DNA of 64,000 nucleotides from the NCBI GenBank assembly GCA_014905825.1, contig JACGCN010000030.1, positions 372,001 to 436,000 on the forward strand, read 5' to 3'. Numbering within the stretch: the first letter of the stretch is position 1; each line of letters opens with the position of its first letter. Shown here piece after piece: positions 9,905-59,310 of the stretch. Source of the stretch: Lyophyllum atratum. Lineage: Eukaryota; Basidiomycota; Agaricomycetes; Agaricales; Lyophyllaceae. The translations under genes were made by a program, and so were the position numbers. The notes below the pieces were generated by a model. The model was not told the DNA's origin. It did not search any database and saw only the letters and a list, made by a program, of their open reading frames with translations.

Positions 9905-10195
9905 CACTTCAGGCAGCCACCTACCTCTACCTCATTAGGTTCGATTGTCCCACCAAAAAATTAGGCCTAACTAGGGCAGATTTTATGGTGCCATCCCATC
10001 ATGTAAGGGCTCTCCCTCCCTAGGGCCTGGGGGCTCCCAGATGCATGGGGGCCACCCACATTTTTGGTGTATGGGAGCTCCCATGAGGCACTGGATCCAC
10101 CCAGTTTTGGGGGCTCTCCCACCTAGTCACACCAGACATGTCACACCTTGAGGGGGCTCCCCAGTACTCAGGGGACCACCCTTTCTAAAATTTCA
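9905..10195. repeat. Left terminal inverted repeat of the KDZ element
   Basis: Matches the reverse complement of 28276-28565. The outer roughly 125 bp appear identical; the inner part diverges by scattered substitutions and small gaps. It contains several short near-palindromes of the type GGGNGCTCCC that also recur in the neighbouring satellite. Confidence 0.9.
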
Positions 10196-10442
10196 GCACT
10201 TCTATAATCTGGTTCTATGCATTCCCCTTTCTCAAGCACCATTGTACCACTTAGCTTGGTCTCATCTATAAACTGACATCTGTTCATTGCAATAGCGACC
10301 TGCTTCTTATGCTAAACTACTATGGTTGACAAGATAGAAATTACTGATACTATTGAACTCATTTGCATTTGCCAGTACTGACCACCATATGTGTAGGAGC
10401 TCCCTCCTGATGAACATGAGTGCTCCTTCTACATACGAGACA

Positions 10443-10770
10443 TATAGGTGCTCCCGGTAGACATGAATGGGACCCCCCTGGATGTACGGGTGCTCCCTGC
10501 ACACACGTGGGACCTCCCGCCCCACATATGGGTGCTCCCCGTAGACATCAATGGGACCCCCCCTAGATATACGGGTGCTCCCCGCACACACTTGGGACCT
10601 CCCGCCGCAGATACGGGTGCTCCCCGTAGACATCAATGGGACCCCCCCTAGATATACGGGTGCTCCCTGCACACAGGTGGGACCTCCCGCCACACATATG
10701 GGTGGTCCCCCTGCACGTATGGGTGCTTCCTATACCTATATGGGACCTCCCCTCTCATACATGGGACCTC
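10443..10770. repeat. Left subterminal satellite, 84-85-bp units
   Basis: About four units, the GGTGCTCCCC mark recurring at 10447, 10531, 10616 and (as GGTGGTCCCC) 10701. Each unit holds sub-units of the form GGGTGCTCCCCnnnGACA and GGGACC(T/C)CCC. The right-end satellite read on the opposite strand has the same build, so the two satellites are inverted relative to each other. Confidence 0.85.
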
Positions 10771-10808
10771 CCCTTCCCCAACTAGAGAGTCAACAAATTT
10801 TATACAAG

Positions 10809-13800
10809 TCAAATATTGAAGTATACATGACTCTCTTCAGTAGACATAGACCGAAATGCATCTGCCAGATCCACTGCATCTAGGGCATCCACAAGCAAGA
10901 GGTCAGTCTCATCTGCCTCTATGATATCCAGGCCGTCCTCATCGTCAATACCATCTGGCCGATTAAGATCCCCTTCCTCCCCCACCTCATTCACTGATGC
11001 CATGTGTCGCGATACGCGAGCTGCGACAATTTCCTCTGGTGACGGTCCCCATTCTGGTAGGGTTGAAAGATCTCCAAAGTCCAGAGACTGTATTTGCTTT
11101 TGCCACGCAGCACATAGGCGACATAATGCCATACGTCGCAGCTGGAGTTCGTAATTCACAGCTTCGGCATCTAAGCAGATGTTTTAGCATTACAGTATTC
11201 AAATTGTCGAGGTACTTACCTCTCGATGCGCAAGGGACATTAACAATTGCCCATTCCTCTGAAAACCATTCGCGCAAACTGCGACACTCATGTCGGAGGC
11301 GAGCCTGTTCCTCCAGACAACGGTCACGCTCCAGCATGGCCTTGATGCCGCTACGCACACTGTCGTTTGATAGCCAAAGGGGAGGCTCTACCTCAGGATC
11401 TTCATCATCATCGAGACCGACGTCTTGCCAAATGCTGTCATCGACGTCGAGCGCGAACAAACCTTTGGTAGCGATTTTAGGGGGACAGTGGGCTCCGCGA
11501 GGTGCTTTCTTGTCTTTGATCATCTGTGCCATCGTGTCACAGAGTCGGTTGTAGTCCTGTGCAAGGCGTTGAATAGTTGGCTCGCGTCGATTGACAGACG
11601 AAGCTGTGTGTGCATTGATTTTTTGGTCTGATCGAACATGATTAGTAACGTGGTGATTGAATAGGACAAACATACCATTTACTTGCTTCCGAAAAGATCG
11701 CTCCAACCGATCCAATTCGAATTTGCGAAACCGGAGCCTATCTCGAAGTCGCACCTTCAAAGCACGCGCATTCATCCGCACAGAAACGAAAGGACTGTTC
11801 ACCAATGTCTGCAGTTCTTGACGTGCTCTGACACCAAGAGCAGCCTCCTTAGTGCGTATTCTGGCATTTGCATCCAAGAGTAGCTCTCGAGCACGGCTCA
11901 AGCCCATCTCGGCATCAGCGAATGCATCTGGCGCAGAATCGGCATCGAGTATAACGAGTTCAAACTCTCGTACTCGGTCTTTAAGAACGTCTCTTGCTTT
12001 TCGTAGACGGATTGCCTCTTCAACTGCTTGCTGGCCTTTCGTTTTCGATTGACCTACAATACTGTGGTGAGAAATGGGATTTTTGGGTGCCCAAGGAGGA
12101 ACGTAATACATACGAGGCAAAGGTTTGGTCTGTGCACGAACTTGTGCTGCCCACTGAGCTCTAAGAAACTCGTCCGAATGGCCGCATTCGAGCAAAGTTG
12201 CCTCTGCCACCTCCCGTTTCCTGATCACATGATGACTACGACGCAACAGCCACATGCCAAACCTTTCAAGGCTCTCCGTTTGCATGTGATTCACCTGTCG
12301 GTCAAGGGTATATAATCGTTGGTGATACTACGGGCCATGACGTTAGTAATGGTCCACATTACATTGAAATGAGCGCAAGTCTCACCCCACAGACGCGCAA
12401 GTACGCTATCAGTTTACTGATCGAGTGCCACACACGCTCGCAACCTTCTCCATCCGTGAGGCCAAAGCCTTCGCGTTTCCGTGGGTGATAGATAATCTGA
12501 CACGGCCACTGGTGTCCGAACGCGTGAAAGACGGAGATCCCGAAGATTATGCGGTTGAGATAGCGGTCGAGGAAGCCCCACTTTACACAGCTCCGCTCGA
12601 GTTGGCAGCCAATGTCGTACAAGAGTCCGATAGTGAACCAAGTGGGAAGATGTTGGAAAAGTGTCTCCAGCAGGACAATGACGTAGTGCTGCTTCTCTCC
12701 GGCAGAGCGCATGTTGACGAGGAACAGTACGATATCGTGGCGACACACTAATGCCATCAACGCGGTGTCATCAAAAAATTGTGTGCTGGCTTTCTCGCGT
12801 CGACTGTCTGCTGCCGTGAAGCTGGATTCACAATCATCCAACACAGACCTAGGAACACGGAGTGACCCTTCGTAGCCGTCCTCCTCATCCTGGGGTTCAT
12901 TCCGGCTGCGCTTTGTCTTCTTCGCCTTGGACGGACGTAGGCTTTCGACATAGTTCTCCATCTGAATAGCCTTCCCTTCATCCACAAAGACGGTGCGCGG
13001 ATGCGTATGAGGTGGGTCGCGCGCTTGATGATTCCGTTTCTGAGTGAAACATGCATCTACGCACACAATCGCATGAGGCCTTGGATTTATTGATTAACGA
13101 TACTTGGTAGTACAGTGAAGTCATGAAAACATACTGGGACTCATTACGGATAGAAGAAAAAATTCCCCCGAAGCATAGCGGGCAGCGAGACCGTAAATAA
13201 TCACTGGGACGTATCCGGAGCAGAGGAATGGGAAACGGATTTGAGGGACAGGTATCCTCCCCCGCTCCTGATCGCCGTCGCTTCGATCCATGAGCAGGAG
13301 TACCCTGCTGCTCTGCTGAGTGATGCTCGGTTGGCGAAGGAGTCTCATCTTCCTCGTCCCGAGGGTGTTGTGGACGGTGGGGCGTGTTAGGAGTCACAGT
13401 GCACCTAGTTGACCCCAGTGTCGGTGAGTGGGGCACTCGGGAGGAAGAGGCCACACTGGTCTCGCAGAGGGAGATTTTGATACCGTCCTCAATCCCGAAC
13501 TGCGCGCGCCGCATGCTACCAAGAAGGTTGTCGACGTAAAGAGCCGACTCGTCCTGCAGTACATTGTACCAGTGCAGGGCATTTCCAAATCTCTTCCGGA
13601 GCGAATCCTGGTGAAGATGTTAAGAAGCAACTGAAGCATGATCAACGGGCAAATATACCTCAGTGGTGAGCTTGAAACCCCTCTTGGATAGAAAGGTCTC
13701 GACCGTTTTGCACCAAGCCGTGTTATTAGGTGCTACGTTAACAAACAGGGAAGCTACGAAATCCAAGACTTTCATGTCCACCCCCAAGGTCGGCGCCAAC

Positions 13801-47071: not shown

Positions 47072-48982
47072 CTATTTCGTCGTGGTCTTCTGAATGAGCT
47101 CTATCACTTTCTCTTGCGCATTGTTAGACCGCAAAATCCCCGAAAAGGTCGCCTGATTAGCATAATTTCGAATATCTTGATGAACCTTCGTAGCCTCTAT
47201 GGTCTTGTAAGTTTCTAGCGCGGTGTCGATTTGCTCCACGGTAAGGTAGCGGGGCGGTTTTATGGGAAGGGTGTCCAAGAAAAGTTGATCCATCACAAGC
47301 GTCAGGTCGACTATGTAGCCCATGAGGCAACGCAAGACTTCAGGGCTACAAACGGCAAGTAAATCAAAATAGTTCAGAGAGTGACACGCGTATGCACACA
47401 CGTTCTCAGGTAGATTCCTCGGATCCACGTTAAGAACGCTGCTGACAGCCCCATGGCCGCAACGGCCGGAGCGGCAGCAGCGACCACAGCTGATGTTACG
47501 CCGATGATACTGTCAATCCGGTCCACGCTCTCGCTAGTGAAAAAGGTCAATATGCTGTCAGAGCGAAGCGAGGAGCTACCAATACACACAACCACGAATT
47601 GAAATCTGAAGGATCTGGCGTGACCAGTTGCACAAGAGTCTTGATCTTCCTCTGAAAACCCTCACCAGTCAACAGCTAGAGCAGGATGGTATCGGCTCAA
47701 AACGAGTAACGAAAATGATCGCAGGCATACATTATCTGGGTCGTTGAAGTTCCAGCTTGAGGTGATATCGACGTGAATTGTGGCTAAGCATTGCTCAAGC
47801 GTTGAACCCGAAAAATTAGAACTCGATGCAAGACCCTGCCAATATTCTAGAGGTTTGTGATCAGGTTTAATTTGGCGAGCCTAAAGGAAGACAAATTACG
47901 TTTCATGCCGACTCTGTTATGGGCGGACATGGGTTAAAAGACTGAGAGGGGATAAAAACAGCAACCCACTGAATGGAGGAACTGATTTTAGATTGGGCGC
48001 TAGCTCTCTGGGCCATCGCAGAGACGATCCAGACATCTCCTTCCACCTCGTGCTCCACGCGACCTTGAGTAAGATCGATGAGGTTCGTCAAAGTCCATCG
48101 GTAGTCCACTGGAAAGAAGAGAACAGATATTGAACAACAGATTAACGGCGGTAAGAATGCAGGTTATCAAACCAGATGTTTTCGCATAAGGAAGCGTATT
48201 ACGGAGCTTTTGCAGAGGATCCACGCAGAGATTCTCAAATTCTACATCGGCCCTTTTTAAGCAAAGATCGTCGATATCTTGTTGCGACATGGTTTCGAGC
48301 TCTTCATCAGTCAGGTCCTCCTCCATACGACTGATGAGTTTATCAAACTTCGTGAAGACGACCACTACGGGCGCTTGTGCTATAAAGGGTTTGGCTCGTC
48401 AGGTATGCTCAATCGGAGACTACTTGTGACTTCCACCTTTCGATGCAAACTTAAGGAATTCTTCGTCACCTGTTTCGAAGACTCGACCACCAGCAAAAGG
48501 AACCTCAATACACAACCTGAATTTTATATTTGAATGAGAGTAACATCATAGAAGTCATGGCTCACCAGACGACATGGAGTCGGTCCTTGAGAGGCACCTC
48601 TTTCCCATGAGATCGAATAAAGCTTTTCACCTTCTCCAAGTTCGCGATTTCGCTTGGCTCGAAACCTTGGGAATCATGAAGCACGAAACGAGGATTCTCC
48701 GGGGATATGATTTCGGTATTGATATCACATACTCCGTGTTCTCGATGCGAGACAGTCTATGCAAGACTCAGTGACGATCTTGTGACAAAAATGGGAAGAC
48801 TTACTGCGATATCGACGTTGAATGCGTGATTGATGAGGCGGGACTTTCCTACTCCAGACTAAGTATCATCGTCAGAGCAACTGTCGAGGACAACGTTAAT
48901 CACAACTGACTTTGCCGACTAACAGGATTCGGAATCTACATTGATGACAATCGATAAGCAAGCTCCGACGATGGATCGTCAT
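47072..48982 (-). CDS. P-loop GTPase (G-domain) with hydrophobic C-terminal segment
   Basis: Ten exons: 48982-48911, 48858-48805, 48756-48566, 48516-48437, 48379-48173, 48108-47966, 47880-47731, 47675-47590, 47533-47402, 47345-47072, about 462 aa. The sixth donor (GTTGCT) is weak and that junction is uncertain. G1 is VGKSGVGKS (split by the first intron); the switch-II region reads HDSQGFE; G4 is TKFD. The C-terminal third contains an Ala/Val-rich, possibly membrane-inserted stretch (SAVVAAAAPAVAAMG) and the conserved PEVLRCLMGYIVDLTLVMDQLF block. Paralogue of the gene at 53679. The family is expanded in Agaricomycetes; its cellular role is unknown to me. Confidence 0.8.
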
Positions 48983-53678: not shown

Positions 53679-56600
53679 ATGCAGAACGCTATCGACCTCC
53701 GAAGTAAATGTAGGCACTTTCGAATTCTCATTATTGGCCGAGCAAATGCGGGCAAGACGACCATCCTGAAGAAAGTGTGCAATTCCATCGAAGATCCCGA
53801 GATCTTCAGTCCATCCGGCAAAAAGGTAATCGTATCAGCACTCGACCGCGATTAAGCTACCTGATATCGCCATTCTTAACGTCCTTCAGCTTGATCCCGC
53901 AAACGTTGAAGGATCAGCAGAGGTTTGACTTCTGTGTCCTTCCTTCAATTCGGTCACGCTTATTGTCTGAACGCAGCGCGGATTACATGATATCGAGAAC
54001 CAACTTATATTCAAGAGCAATCCACAGTTCATTTTCCATGACTCCCGTGGATTCGAATCTGGCTCTATTGACGAAATGAAGATCGTACAATCCTTCATCA
54101 GCAAACGGGCGCGAAGCACAGAATTACCCGAACAACTTCACTCGATTTGGTGCATTGTTTCACACTTCACACGCAGCAGGTTGAAACTGACTGGATCCAT
54201 CATAGGTATTGTCTCCCGACAGACACAGACAGGCCGCTATTGGAGGCTGATAAAAAGTTCTTCAATGAATACGGTAGTGGGAGTGGTGAGTGATCTCCTG
54301 TACGCCTATAGTTGAACTATACTAAGTATCTCTTTGACGTTGAAGTACCTGTTGTGGCAATTTTCACTAAGTTTGATGGCCTTGTCACGACAGTGTTTAA
54401 CAATCTTCGGAAAGGGCTTGGGATCAGAGAGGCAAACAATAAGAAGGTTCAACATGCACAGGAGAAGCTGGAGACCAATTTTGTAGAACCGCTCATGGCA
54501 ACTAAATTCCATCCATCAGATCATGTGCAACTGGACGGTTGGTCGACTTGCATGATGTATTTTTATATTTCTAATTTCTGACAAATTCCTTTTTTCTTAT
54601 TTTATGGTCAGATATGCGAAAGGCCGAGAGTAATTGTGCCCGGCTGATTGAGAAGACAGCAGATGGACTTGGCAATGACACTCTGCAGCTGTTATTTGTG
54701 TCCGTACAGCAGAACAATATTGGACTTTGTATCCAGATGGCAGTAAAAAGGTGAGTGGCTTCTTGATTCATCTCTCATCTTTCCCTCATCACCAGCTGTT
54801 TTGTAGGTCCCATAGACTGTTGAAAGTTGGAGAAGTAAAAGGTATGCACCAACCCTCACATTTTATGGGTTTGATATGTAGGGATGTTTTAGTTGGTAAA
54901 AATTCTTTAGAGGTGTTTGTGCTGGAAATTCTTGCGTGGTTCCCACATGTATGGGTATGTGGCAGCACAGTTTTAAAGTGAAACCATTCATCAAATGGCT
55001 GACAATGATACAGACTGTAGGTATCTGATTCAGAAATGCATTTTCACAAATATTGACCTAGGCTTGGGTTTGAATAACAGAATGTCAGTGTCCGATTATT
55101 CTGGTTATGTGAAGGGTTTCTTACGCAAGAATTACACTAGGCTGTAAGACATCAATATCTGTTCCAAGTATAATCAAATAACTCTATTGTTCTAGAAGGT
55201 AAGGAGATTATTTTCATTCATTATTGGCATGCTCAGCATTTGATAAAAACAATTAGTATGTAAGTGATGAAAGTGGTTTCCCATTCCCAGAATTACATTG
55301 ATGACACATTTTATATATAGGATGTGAGTGGGATTCATGACAGTAGTGCTCCCCTTATAATCATGCTTTCCTTTATAGAAGGTGAGGATGCGTCCAAGTC
55401 AGAGCATTATTCTGGTGAGAAGTATCTGATTAATAATAGGAAGTAAGCCCCAATTTCATATCATCAAATCTGGGTCACTTATGCTGCATGACTTGAACTT
55501 GTGTGCAATTTGAACAGCATGTAAGTTCTATTGTGTTTTTATGCCATGAATTTCATTGACATTTCCTGTCATGTCCAATCTTGATAGGCTGTGAGTGTTC
55601 ATTTTGTACTTTGAGCCTGTTTCATGTTACTGACCACCCTGTTCTGGGGCCGCCAATCTGTATAGCCTGTGAGTGTCCATTTCATACTGTACATTGAGCC
55701 TATTTCATCTCACCGGCCACCTTGCCCTGCGGCCTCCATTCTCAACAGCTAGTGAGTGTCATCTTTGTACTTCGACCCTGAATTCATGTTACTGACCGCG
55801 TTGCCTGTGACCTCCATTCTCAACAGCTAGTGGGTGTCATCTTTGTACTTTGAGCCTGTTTCATGTAACTGACCGCCTTGCGTGTGGCCTCAAATCCCAA
55901 CAGGCGGTGAGTATTGTCTTTGTACTTTGAGCCTGGTTACATGTCACTGACTGCCTTGCCGGTGGCCTCTATTTTCAACAGGCGGTGAGTATCGTCTTTG
56001 TACTTTGACTCTGGTTTCATGTAACTGACCACCTTGTCTCTGGCCTCTGTTCTCAACAGATGGTGAGTGTCGTCTTTGTACTTTGACTCTGGTTTCATGT
56101 AACTGACCACCTTGTCTATTTTCAACAGGCGGTGAGTATCACATTTGTACTTTGAGCCTATTTCATGTCACTGACCACCTTGCCTGTGGCCTCCAATCTC
56201 AACAGGTTGTGAGTGTCATCTTTGTACTTTGAGCCTGGTTACATGTCACTGACTGCCTTGCCGGTGGCCTCTATTTTCAACAGGCGGTGAGTATCGTCTT
56301 TGTACTTTGACTCTGGTTTCATGTAACTGACCACCTTGTCTCTGGCCTCCATTCTCAACAGCTGGTGAGTGTCGTCCTTGTACTTTGACTCTGGTTTCAT
56401 GTCACTGACCACCTTGTCTATTTTCAACAGGCGGTGAGTATCACATTTGTACTTTGAGCCTATTTCATGTCACTGACCACCTTGCCTGTGGCCTCCAATC
56501 TCAACAGGTTGTGAGTGTCATCTTTGTACTTTGAGCCTGTTTCATGTCACTGACCACCTTGCTTGTGGCCTCTATTTTCAATAGGCGGTGAGTATCGTCT

Positions 56601-58228
56601 TTGTACTTTGACTCTGGCTTCATGTTACTGACCACCTTGTCTATTTTCAACAGGCGGTGAGTATCGTCTTTGTACTTTGAGCCTGTTTCATGTCACTGAC
56701 CACCTTGCCTGTGACCTCTATTTTCAACAGGAGGTGAGTATCATCTTTGTACTTTGAGCCTGTTTCATGTCATTGACCACCTTGCTTGTGGCCTCCATTC
56801 TCAACAGGAGGTGAGTGTCGTCCTTGTACTTTGACTCTGGTTTTGTATTACTAACCACCTTGCTTGTGGCCTCCATTCTCAACAGGAGGTGAGTGTCGTC
56901 CTTGTACTTTGACTCTGGTTTTGTATTCCTAACCACCTTGTCTTGTGGCCTCCCATCTCAACAGGTTGTGAGTGTCATCTTTGTACTTTGAGCCTGTTTC
57001 ATGTCACTGACCACCTTGCTTGTGGCCTCTATTTTCAACAGGCGGTGAGTATCGTCTTTGTACTTTGACTCTGGCTTCATGTTACTGACCACCTTGTCTC
57101 TGGCCTCTATTCTCAACAGGTCGTGAGTGTCGTCTTTGTACTTTGAGCCTGGTTTCATGTAACTGACCACATTGCCTGTGACCTCCATTCTCAACAGGTC
57201 GTGAGTATCGTCTTTGTACTTTGACTCTGGCTTCATGTTACTGACCACCTTGTCTCTGGCCTCTATTCTCAACAGGCGGTGAGTGTCGTCTTTGTACTTT
57301 GAGCCTGGTTTCATGTAACTGACCGCATTGCCTGTGACCTCCATTTTCAACAGGAGGTGAGTGTCGTGTTTGTACTTTGAGCCTGGTTTTGTGTTACTGA
57401 CCACCTTGCCCTATGGCCTCTAATCTCAACAGTCTGTGAGTGTTGTCCTTGTACTTTGAGCCTGGTTTTGTATTACTAACCCACTTGTCTTGTGGCCTCC
57501 AATCTCAACAGGTTGTGAGTGTCATCTTTGTACTTTGAGCCACTTTCATGTTACTGATATCCCTCTCATTGTATGTGCAGATAGTAAGCAGCAGCCATTG
57601 CTGTTATTTTGGATCATACTGAATGTTTATGCTTGATTCATCCACAACTTCAAAACAGTTTGTAAGTTTTTACATTGTAATGATTTGTAGTTCCATCTTT
57701 GCTAACTGATACTCACATTCTTCTGTACATAGTCACACAACATTGAATCTACCATTGGAATTCTCTTGAGCAAGTTCCCTGACTTGGTATGTTCATGGAA
57801 TGTTTCATTCACTAATTATTGTAACAATTCACATCAGAGGGAGTCATTGCAATCAGTCTTTGGGAAGGCGGAGCTCCTTGTTGGTATGATGTGGATCTAT
57901 ACCCTACGCACCACTTCTGATTTTTTTGCAGTGCTGTGTATTTGTGCAGAACAAACATTTACACAGGCATTTGCACACAAACAGATGTTTCCTCGAGCTT
58001 TCTCAGTTGCACTGGATGCATATGTGGAGTCAGCCATAAAGGATGAGGTCAGCAAAGCACTCAGGGTCTTCATTGATGGACAGGAGAGTCCAAACAGGAT
58101 TATTGAATGGCTTGTGGAGGTCATAAATAATAACTTTCTTCGTATGTGGTTTCCTTTGCAATGCTCACGTACATATCCACTCATGATTCATGAATCATGG
58201 TACTCTTGGTTATATAGGCATCAACTGA
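53679..58228 (+). CDS. P-loop GTPase with 37 predicted single-codon exons
   Basis: Normal exons: 53679-53825, 53890-53922, 53977-54149, 54206-54285, 54346-54537, 54612-54750, 54807-54841, 54893-54954; then 37 triplets flanked by AG and GT between 55014 and 57661; then 57733-57786, 57838-57883, 57932-58141, 58218-58228. All phases agree (430 aa, 49 exons). G1 is IIGRANAGKTT, switch II HDSRGFE, G4 TKFD. The triplets encode no stop; after nine mostly polar residues they give Ala/Val/Leu-rich sequence (LLAAMAVALAVAA), resembling the Ala/Val-rich stretch of the paralogue at 47402-47533. Skipping the whole array (donor 54955, acceptor 57732) would also stay in frame, and a longer read-through end to 58479 is possible. 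Confidence 0.7.
55591..57580 (+). repeat. Tandem array of intron-like units (period 69-83, mostly 77-79 bp)
   Basis: About 25 units. Each begins GTGAGT(A/G)TC, continues TTTGTACTTTGA, has a CTGAC branch-like site (most often ACTGACC) and ends in CAACAG, with three bases between the CAG of one unit and the GTGAGT of the next. These three bases are the variable part (GCG, GTT, GAG, GTC, CTA, CTG, ATG, TCT). Minus-strand frames across it give a repetitive Lys/Asp/Glu peptide that is an artefact of the period. Confidence 0.92.
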
Positions 58229-58717: not shown

Positions 58718-58783
58718 TAAACATGGCAAAAATGAATCTAATGTTTTCTTTAAACATGGCAAAAATGAATCTAATGTTTTCTT
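58718..58783. repeat. 33-bp perfect tandem duplication
   Basis: TAAACATGGCAAAAATGAAT starts at 58718 and again at 58751; the units continue CTAATGTTTTCTT. Confidence 0.9.
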
Positions 58784-59310
58784 TATGATGCCCCAAAGAA
58801 GTGCGCCCTCGAAAAGCGCCTGCAGATGATGTTTTCTGAGCTCGCTGCTGCAAACGATGAGCAGAAGCAATTGAAAACTTGTTCAAGGCAACGGGCATCA
58901 AAGTCAAACGGGCCTCTACCTATTGGTTGTGGCTATAAGAGGGAAGGAACAAAGGCACACTAGTAGCTGCTTACTGCGCTCCATGAAGAACTGTACACCA
59001 AGATGTTGGAACTGCGCGGAAGTAAACATGATGTGATGTCCTGCTTTGATGCACTCTCCGAGTGCAATGATCAAGCCAAGGTAAATGATGTCGGTCGAAC
59101 TTGATAATTCCAGAGCTGAGGGCTTAAACTTGGAAAGCCTTGTATCGTTTGGATCATCTGCGCGACCGTCACTCCTCATCAGTCACTCGAACGAATGTCT
59201 CCAAAAGTCACGCGCTCACCTCAAAAACGCATTCCAAACTCGCTACAGCTTTCCCCACTTGACCTGCCTAGGACTGCGCCGTTTATGGATACAAGTAACG
59301 AGACTTGCGA

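Follow-up and report, generated by a model that had tools for sequence, protein, structure and literature searches.

Background

Genes built from very small exons are best known from flatworms, where the micro-exon genes (MEGs) of schistosomes and tapeworms carry runs of tiny exons whose lengths are divisible by three, so that skipping is safe for the frame (PMC7653826 and PMC4350168), and where small exons make up most of the coding region (PMC4350168). Exons of 1 to 3 nt spliced singly have been described for Arabidopsis APC11, Drosophila homothorax and Fusarium CYP621A (PMC4674806, PMC12940212 and PMC7392893), and exon definition was regarded as very unlikely for an exon of one nucleotide (PMC4674806). 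Introns can also be gained by tandem duplication, in which a segment with splice signals is copied and a new intron results; in a potato case, an intron-exon structure was duplicated (PMC4974935). Here, we describe a GTPase-like gene of the mushroom Lyophyllum atratum in which 37 consecutive exons are predicted to consist of a single codon each. The window analysed is a stretch of 64,000 nt (contig JACGCN010000030.1, 372,001 to 436,000), which is part of the contig referred to below as C76, and window positions are counted from its first letter.

The bulk of the spliceosome is believed to put a practical lower limit on exon size, and most accounts of tiny exons concern single events. In recursive splicing, a donor is used directly after the preceding acceptor and an intron is removed stepwise. 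Fungal introner-like elements are repeated introns, and stwintrons are removed by consecutive splicing reactions.

Layout of the array and predicted gene model

Segment 54955-57732 of the window is most probably (rough probability 0.86) a series of 37 one-codon exons set between 38 GT-AG introns of ordinary short length; splicing in succession is predicted to yield a linker of 37 residues in a mushroom GTPase. This codon-by-codon reading, proposed in the initial annotation, is favoured because there is a collinear copy on contig C46, because diverged paralogues keep the junctions, and because open reading frames (ORFs) from other sources hold the first six residues, or similar ones, without interruption. 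The layout is directly visible in the DNA: all 37 YAG-NNN-GT sites were located where the initial annotation had placed them, from 55014 to 57659, in an unbroken plus-strand chain with spacings of 55-83 nt and a unit missing nowhere. The preceding exon (54893-54954) ends in phase 0 before the array, as had been claimed, and joining of the flanking exons with the 37 triplets gave a frame that was open throughout, with 427 complete codons, the triplets encoding TNAKYDKEHAPLLAAMAVALAVAAEEEVAVVAESVIF between ...WFPHVW and SHNIESTIG....

A GT donor and an AG acceptor, as in U2-type spliceosomal introns, were present in 38 of the 38 predicted introns of the run, which measured 52-80 nt as compared with 48-74 nt for the other introns of the same gene model; of the intron-like gaps of 49-80 nt given previously, the upper end was right and the lower was not. 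Lengths modulo 3 of the 36 introns between triplets were distributed 18/10/8, in agreement with the earlier statement that the triplet frame is kept though the genomic frame is not. A branch-point-like [CT]T[AG]A[CT] motif upstream of the AG was found in 33 of the 38 introns, a raw count given without a chance level. The predicted model had 48 exons, 37 of them of 3 nt and in a single run; by the definition in PMC7653826 (at least seven exons, at least half of them micro-exons shorter than 70 nt and divisible by three, and a run of at least four), it would rank as a MEG in exon number, share and run.

Residues 1-255 of the model were identical to the annotated L. atratum protein P0001. The gene appears to encode a GTPase, by resemblance only: a P-loop, GRANAGKTT, was recognised by eye in the model, and MMR_HSR1 (PF01926) scored 19.2 bits, below its gathering cut-off of 21.9. 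The exons after the array resembled, also by eye, the ...KNVAFCIDAL...CICAEHTFT... of Mycena proteins.

Chance controls and anatomy of the tandem repeat

The motif YAG-N(n)-GT[ACG][AG]G was tested with n from 0 to 15 on both strands of the window. On the plus strand, the chain comprised 37 sites at n = 3 and 1-2 sites at every other n. On the minus strand, n = 4 yielded 9 consecutive YAG-N4-GTNRG sites, probably a by-product of the tandem repeat described below. At n = 0, no site occurred in 54955-55587 and no chain longer than 2 on either window strand, both of which count against zero-length recursive splice sites. In the stretch outside the repeat, 9 sites were observed (10 with the edge site), whereas no count above 2 was reached in 2000 dinucleotide shuffles of it. 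Chains of two sites or longer were absent from L001-L005, L024-L028 and L032, loci that lie apart from the arrays.

From 55588 on, the triplets mostly fall within a tandem repeat with a unit of 78 bp (25.6 copies over 55591-57557; a 302-bp row from 55574 was also found). The initial annotation overlooked this repeat, as well as the difference in its copy number between the two gene copies. Across most of the run, the repeat unit equals one intron plus one codon. Among 35 aligned units from the window and C46, AG and GT were present in 35/35, a presence partly forced since the units had been picked by the splice motif itself, and the triplet columns were among the most variable (entropy 1.19, 1.54 and 1.40 versus a mean of 0.48). 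Variable triplets with constant AG and GT are the expectation for splice sites that are held while codons drift. The window unit had 33 matches among the best-scoring candidates of the genome search, all within the C76 and C46 arrays. The first nine and last two triplets adjoin introns not recognisable as copies of the unit: when compared with either unit, the 12 introns outside the repeat gave z values of at most 2.0. Two of the 66 pairs among these 12 reached z 5.1 and 4.1, suggesting a possible old kinship among some of them. The repeat part by itself would prove little; the argument rests on the unique part and on the most diverged paralogous array.

A collinear copy on C46

A search of the 64.8-Mb genome showed that C46:859037-895305 is collinear with window 29821-64000, with about 78-98% identity outside the array, and nothing matching window 1-29820 was found in C46:845000-859036. 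The two copies are probably haplotypes of the dikaryon with a structural difference at the left end; a large duplication is a possible alternative. Window 10001-13000 had no C46 counterpart among the listed matches except a short repeat match; this segment belongs to a dispersed repeat family, with matches on C1, C61, C13, C103 and a second C76 site.

This second copy, observed directly, carries an array of the same layout with 22 triplets, TNVEYDKEHPEELEAEEPSVIF. The nine corresponding first sites read TNAKYDKEH in the window and TNVEYDKEH in C46, and the first nine and last four C46 codons correspond to those of the window, the middle portion being 15 codons shorter and of different composition. 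The resemblance of the run to a paralogue exon at 47402-47533, noted in the initial annotation, looks compositional only, C46 having EELEAEEP in the same place. That paralogue is a more distant P-loop gene on the minus strand (window about 47.2-48.8 kb) with an Ala/Val-rich stretch in an ordinary frame, and it too has a collinear C46 copy.

The G-domain exons of the two copies differed by 15 synonymous and 9 non-synonymous changes in 762 nt, corresponding to a non-synonymous divergence (dN) of 0.015-0.018 and a synonymous divergence (dS) of 0.064-0.096 (0.015 and 0.096, respectively, by the NG86 method), with a dN/dS of about 0.16-0.28 over these 762 nt. In the alignable unique introns, differences were found at 0/48 GT/AG sites, 38/643 interior positions and 2/36 triplet positions, the first count being only suggestive if taken alone.

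Paralogous arrays on C24 and C81

A protein search of the same genome revealed G-domain relatives on C24 and C81, three of which contained arrays of their own (L029 and L030 on C24, L031 on C81; Table 1), a recurrence that is plainly seen in the assembly and had escaped the initial annotation. L029 and the C81 copy shared 98.7% identity over 3746 nt of one flank and are probably haplotypes. The units of the C24 and C81 arrays are related to each other and unrelated to the window unit (window versus L031 unit, z -0.6); the L031-type unit had 62 matches among the best-scoring candidates, all in the C81 array and the two C24 arrays. In L030 and L029, the upstream frame was open and, with manually chosen exon ends, reached the array in phase 0. 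None of the five arrays (37+22+39+40+16 triplets, 154 in all) contained a stop. A slightly wider branch-point-like motif was present in 32/36 L030 units and 37/37 L031 units (raw counts without a chance level).

L030 was the most informative. Its 36 aligned units had a mean pairwise identity of 67% and a minimum of 46%, and its introns ranged from 53 to 78 nt with many indels; the 39-unit chain nevertheless ran without a gap, with spacings of 56-81 nt and codons of exactly 3 nt. Because the introns have diverged while the chain of exact 3-nt codons is unbroken, selection would seem to have acted on every junction. The strict motif was found in 35/39 units, and the other four donors were GTATGT, GTATGC, GTGTGT and GCAAGT, the last being a GC donor after the micro-exon at reverse complement 7128. 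Since these units were found by motif, AG and G[TC] were forced by the choice of sites. Not forced were the absence of a missing unit, which would appear as a spacing of about 138 nt as in L029, and the occupation of donor position 5 by G in 36/36 units. The chance that the four splice bases would be kept in all 36 units at the interior rate was near 1e-19, an estimate that assumes independent units and counts GC as kept.

No such chain was found in other relatives, namely those near 48.6-48.8 kb of the window, at C24:891.5 kb and at C81:79.2 kb, nor in the C46:880-kb counterpart (within L027). In two fixed-pattern genome scans, the only clusters among the roughly 100 places listed for each (of 645 and 382) were the C24 arrays. 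Further arrays may exist elsewhere in this genome.

Homologous proteins

The best protein search gave 964 hits, of which the best 120 were considered. Of 121 proteins compared, 45 had an HVW-like motif, followed in 42 of them by six residues or more. P0005 (430 aa, from a 1669-nt contig) reads W|TNAEYDLDPRPPDRLHRPRRDPRPLRRDPLLCF|LDNV, after which comes the conserved C-terminal part; its 33-residue insert starts with TNAEYD and ends with LLCF before LDNV. P0006 reads W|ANFEYD|VC and then ends, and P0112 reads W|KDTEYD|VSEK and stops a little further on. For the first six residues, the triplets predict TN(A/V)(K/E)YD, and the window/C46 hexapeptide was matched at 6, 4 and 3 of 6 sites by P0005, P0006 and P0112, respectively, as compared with at most 2 sites in the tails of the other 39 of the 42 homologues. 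These three are ORFs on JGI contigs of 1.0-1.7 kb, which we infer to be spliced RNA because the ORFs cross sites that are introns in the window gene. One intron is perhaps retained at the start of P0112, and the V-C of P0006 and V-S of P0112 after codon six are as expected for read-through of a retained GT donor. The homologues differed in the segment between the two exons: P0005 carries it, P0006 and P0112 carry similar first six residues, and the Mycena proteins P0033 and P0040 are nearly without it. P0022 looks as if one ordinary intron were retained at the insert position; with the two Mycena proteins, this suggests that the segment varies between lineages.

The deposited protein P0001 stops inside the array, ending W-N-KVRRLFSFIIGMLSI. 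Its N codon has just one AG-AAY-GT within reach, the AG-AAT-GT at 55081, and its KVRR... corresponds to the triplet at 55196 read on into the following intron. Thus, the deposited model itself seems to use one 3-nt exon (55081).

In an AlphaFold model of P0005, the insert formed an unstructured link between two helices, with a predicted local distance difference test (pLDDT) score below 50 at residues 280-303, a mean pLDDT of 75.6 and a predicted template modelling (pTM) score of 0.56. The array-encoded peptide is accordingly predicted, from this model, to be a disordered linker tolerant of changes in length and composition.

Features of the locus

Coordinates are collected in Table 1. At 54882-54900, the window has one T fewer than the C46 copy directly after the acceptor; the window frame remains open if the acceptor used lies 11 nt downstream (exon start 54893) or if exon 54807-54841 is skipped as in P0001. 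Downstream of the gene, a perfect 33-bp direct repeat of 2.1 copies is located at 58718-58785. A large insertion in the C81 copy lies, relative to C24, between L031 5795 and the L032 part (L029 6168-6176), and its ends show a short overlap resembling a target-site duplication.

Table 1. Predicted features of the window gene (window positions) and its paralogous arrays (contig positions)
Feature	Position	Strand	Basis or remark
G-domain part of GTPase gene	53679..54750	+	exons 53679-53825, 53890-53922, 53977-54149, 54206-54285, 54346-54537, 54612-54750; open joined frame
Possible exon, ambiguous choice	54807..54841	+	skipped in P0001, which reads from 54882
Last ordinary exon before array, ...LEILAWFPHVW, end phase 0	54893..54954	+	gene model
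Nine one-codon exons, TNAKYDKEH	55014, 55081, 55141, 55196, 55257, 55321, 55379, 55440, 55518 (55014..55520)	+	introns not recognisable repeat copies
Tandem repeat, about 78 bp per unit (intron + codon), triplets 55588 to 57512	55574..57557	+	repeat search, unit alignment
Last two one-codon exons, ATA (57581) and TTT (57659)	57581..57661	+	same codons in C46 copy
Exons after array, 57733-57786, 57838-57883, 57932-58141	57733..58141	+	gene model; predicted gene end provisional
L030 array, 39 triplets	C24:122500-132400	-	paralogous GTPase gene
L029 array, 16 triplets	C24:884500-894400	-	paralogous GTPase gene
L031 array, 40 triplets	C81:66000-75900	-	paralogous GTPase gene

Alternative explanations

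Several observations weigh against splicing codon by codon. Splicing of the window array is predicted from DNA and protein sequence alone, and the status of the three JGI contigs is judged from their ORFs only. A search with the P0005 insert returned only P0005 (30 candidates). With window residues 262-400 as the query, two proteins were found among 661 candidates, and both lacked the insert. In Mycena P0033 and P0040, the next conserved stretch follows HVW almost at once. The branch-point-like motif was present in 5 of the first 9 introns of the run. The absence of stops from the 37 triplets, correctly stated in the initial annotation, is weak as an argument, with a chance of about 0.20 per array. 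Irregularities occur in the other copies as well: one spacing of 106 nt within the C46 array, a 20-nt deletion in the last C46 exon (L009 5910-6099 versus window 57932-58141) that shifts the C-terminal frame and with which this copy may be impaired, one L029 unit lacking GT and visible as a 138-nt gap, and an insertion of about 6.5 kb in the G-domain part of the C81 copy.

The whole stretch might be one intron of 2778 nt filled with satellite, the motifs being inherited copies and the triplets never appearing in mRNA. Such an intron would suit the tandem repetition of most of the run and the Mycena homologues with almost nothing between the two exons; it would, however, be far longer than the ordinary 48-74 nt introns of the model, and it leaves unaccounted for the nine one-codon sites outside the repeat, the unbroken chain of diverged L030 with exact 3-nt codons despite intron indels, and the TNAEYD of P0005. 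We consider it highly improbable. That the motifs arose by chance or composition, as intron-like signals in an AT-richer stretch, is virtually negligible: donors and acceptors are short motifs, but the shuffles and the other gap lengths refute this origin, and the absence of chains, even of two sites, from loci apart from the arrays speaks against it. The arrays might once have been spliced and the present copies be pseudogenes, as the deletion in C46, the insertion in C81 and the uncertain exon choice at 54807-54892 in the window copy would suggest; the window frame is nevertheless open from end to end in the model and dN/dS remains well below 1 at the values given above, which makes decay unlikely. 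Introner-like elements and stwintrons were considered and rejected: copies of the unit were not dispersed over many genes, the matches among the best candidates scored being confined to arrays, and each modelled intron has its own donor and acceptor, with none nested.

Finally, the one-codon exons may be real and many of them skipped at random, giving a ladder of proteins that differ by single residues, as has been proposed for flatworm micro-exon genes. Any skip would keep the frame, the L029 unit with a broken donor would simply be skipped, and P0001, P0006 and P0112 resemble partly spliced or skipping forms; the unbroken L030 junctions suggest instead that most are used most of the time. 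Loose splicing of this kind, which we regard as somewhat doubtful, is a form of the codon-by-codon reading rather than its opposite.

Proposed mechanism and comparison with known systems

If the array is spliced codon by codon, each intron would be removed by intron definition. Neighbouring introns are 3 nt apart and two spliceosomes would hardly fit on both sides at once, so the donor beside a newly joined codon could become usable only once the intron preceding that codon was gone, in a recursive walk in which every step leaves one codon behind. The use of each individual junction is inferred. The array would grow or shrink by duplication or loss of a unit of intron plus codon; a duplication would add one intron along with one residue, a loss would take one residue away, and neither would disturb the frame. 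The nine non-repeat introns, one codon apart, could stem from very old duplications or from successive insertions.

Tentatively, and at slightly less than even odds, we propose that these arrays act as a codon ratchet, in which a satellite of introns, with intron plus codon as its unit, is lodged within a coding gene and unequal exchange adds or removes single amino acids in frame under a strict splicing order. The difference in copy number between the C76 and C46 arrays is observed; under this proposal, the two nuclei of one dikaryon would encode the same GTPase with linkers of 37 and 22 residues (and of 40 and 16), and such arrays would have arisen at least twice with unrelated introns, as a recurrent mode of building fast-evolving linkers.

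If the prediction of splicing is correct, removal of 38 introns would be needed in the window gene to encode 37 amino acids. With about 40 consecutive removals for about 40 codons, such genes would be naturally suited to testing ordered splicing by intron definition, and they would show how introns can multiply and how a protein can gain exactly one residue at each event. Segments of this kind can escape gene annotation, as is seen in the deposited P0001, which stops inside the array; other examples may therefore lie undetected in the genomes of mushrooms.

Searches of an open-licence library, which did not extend to subscription papers, brought up no array of one-codon exons. Tandem duplication is known to create introns in one or a few events, whereas tens of rounds would be required here, each with a 3-nt exon. 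Unlike recursive splicing, each step would leave three coding nucleotides in the mRNA, and unlike introners and stwintrons, the units here were matched only in arrays and are not nested. The 1-3 nt micro-exons described previously are single, whereas 16-40 occur consecutively in these genes. The closest likeness is to the MEGs, with which the array shares consecutive tiny exons of lengths divisible by three; it differs in that all exons of the run have a length of exactly one codon, that intron plus codon forms a repeat unit in most of the run, and that the array lies within an otherwise ordinary fungal GTPase gene. Judged by these features, the array would represent a new and extreme variant of the micro-exon gene.

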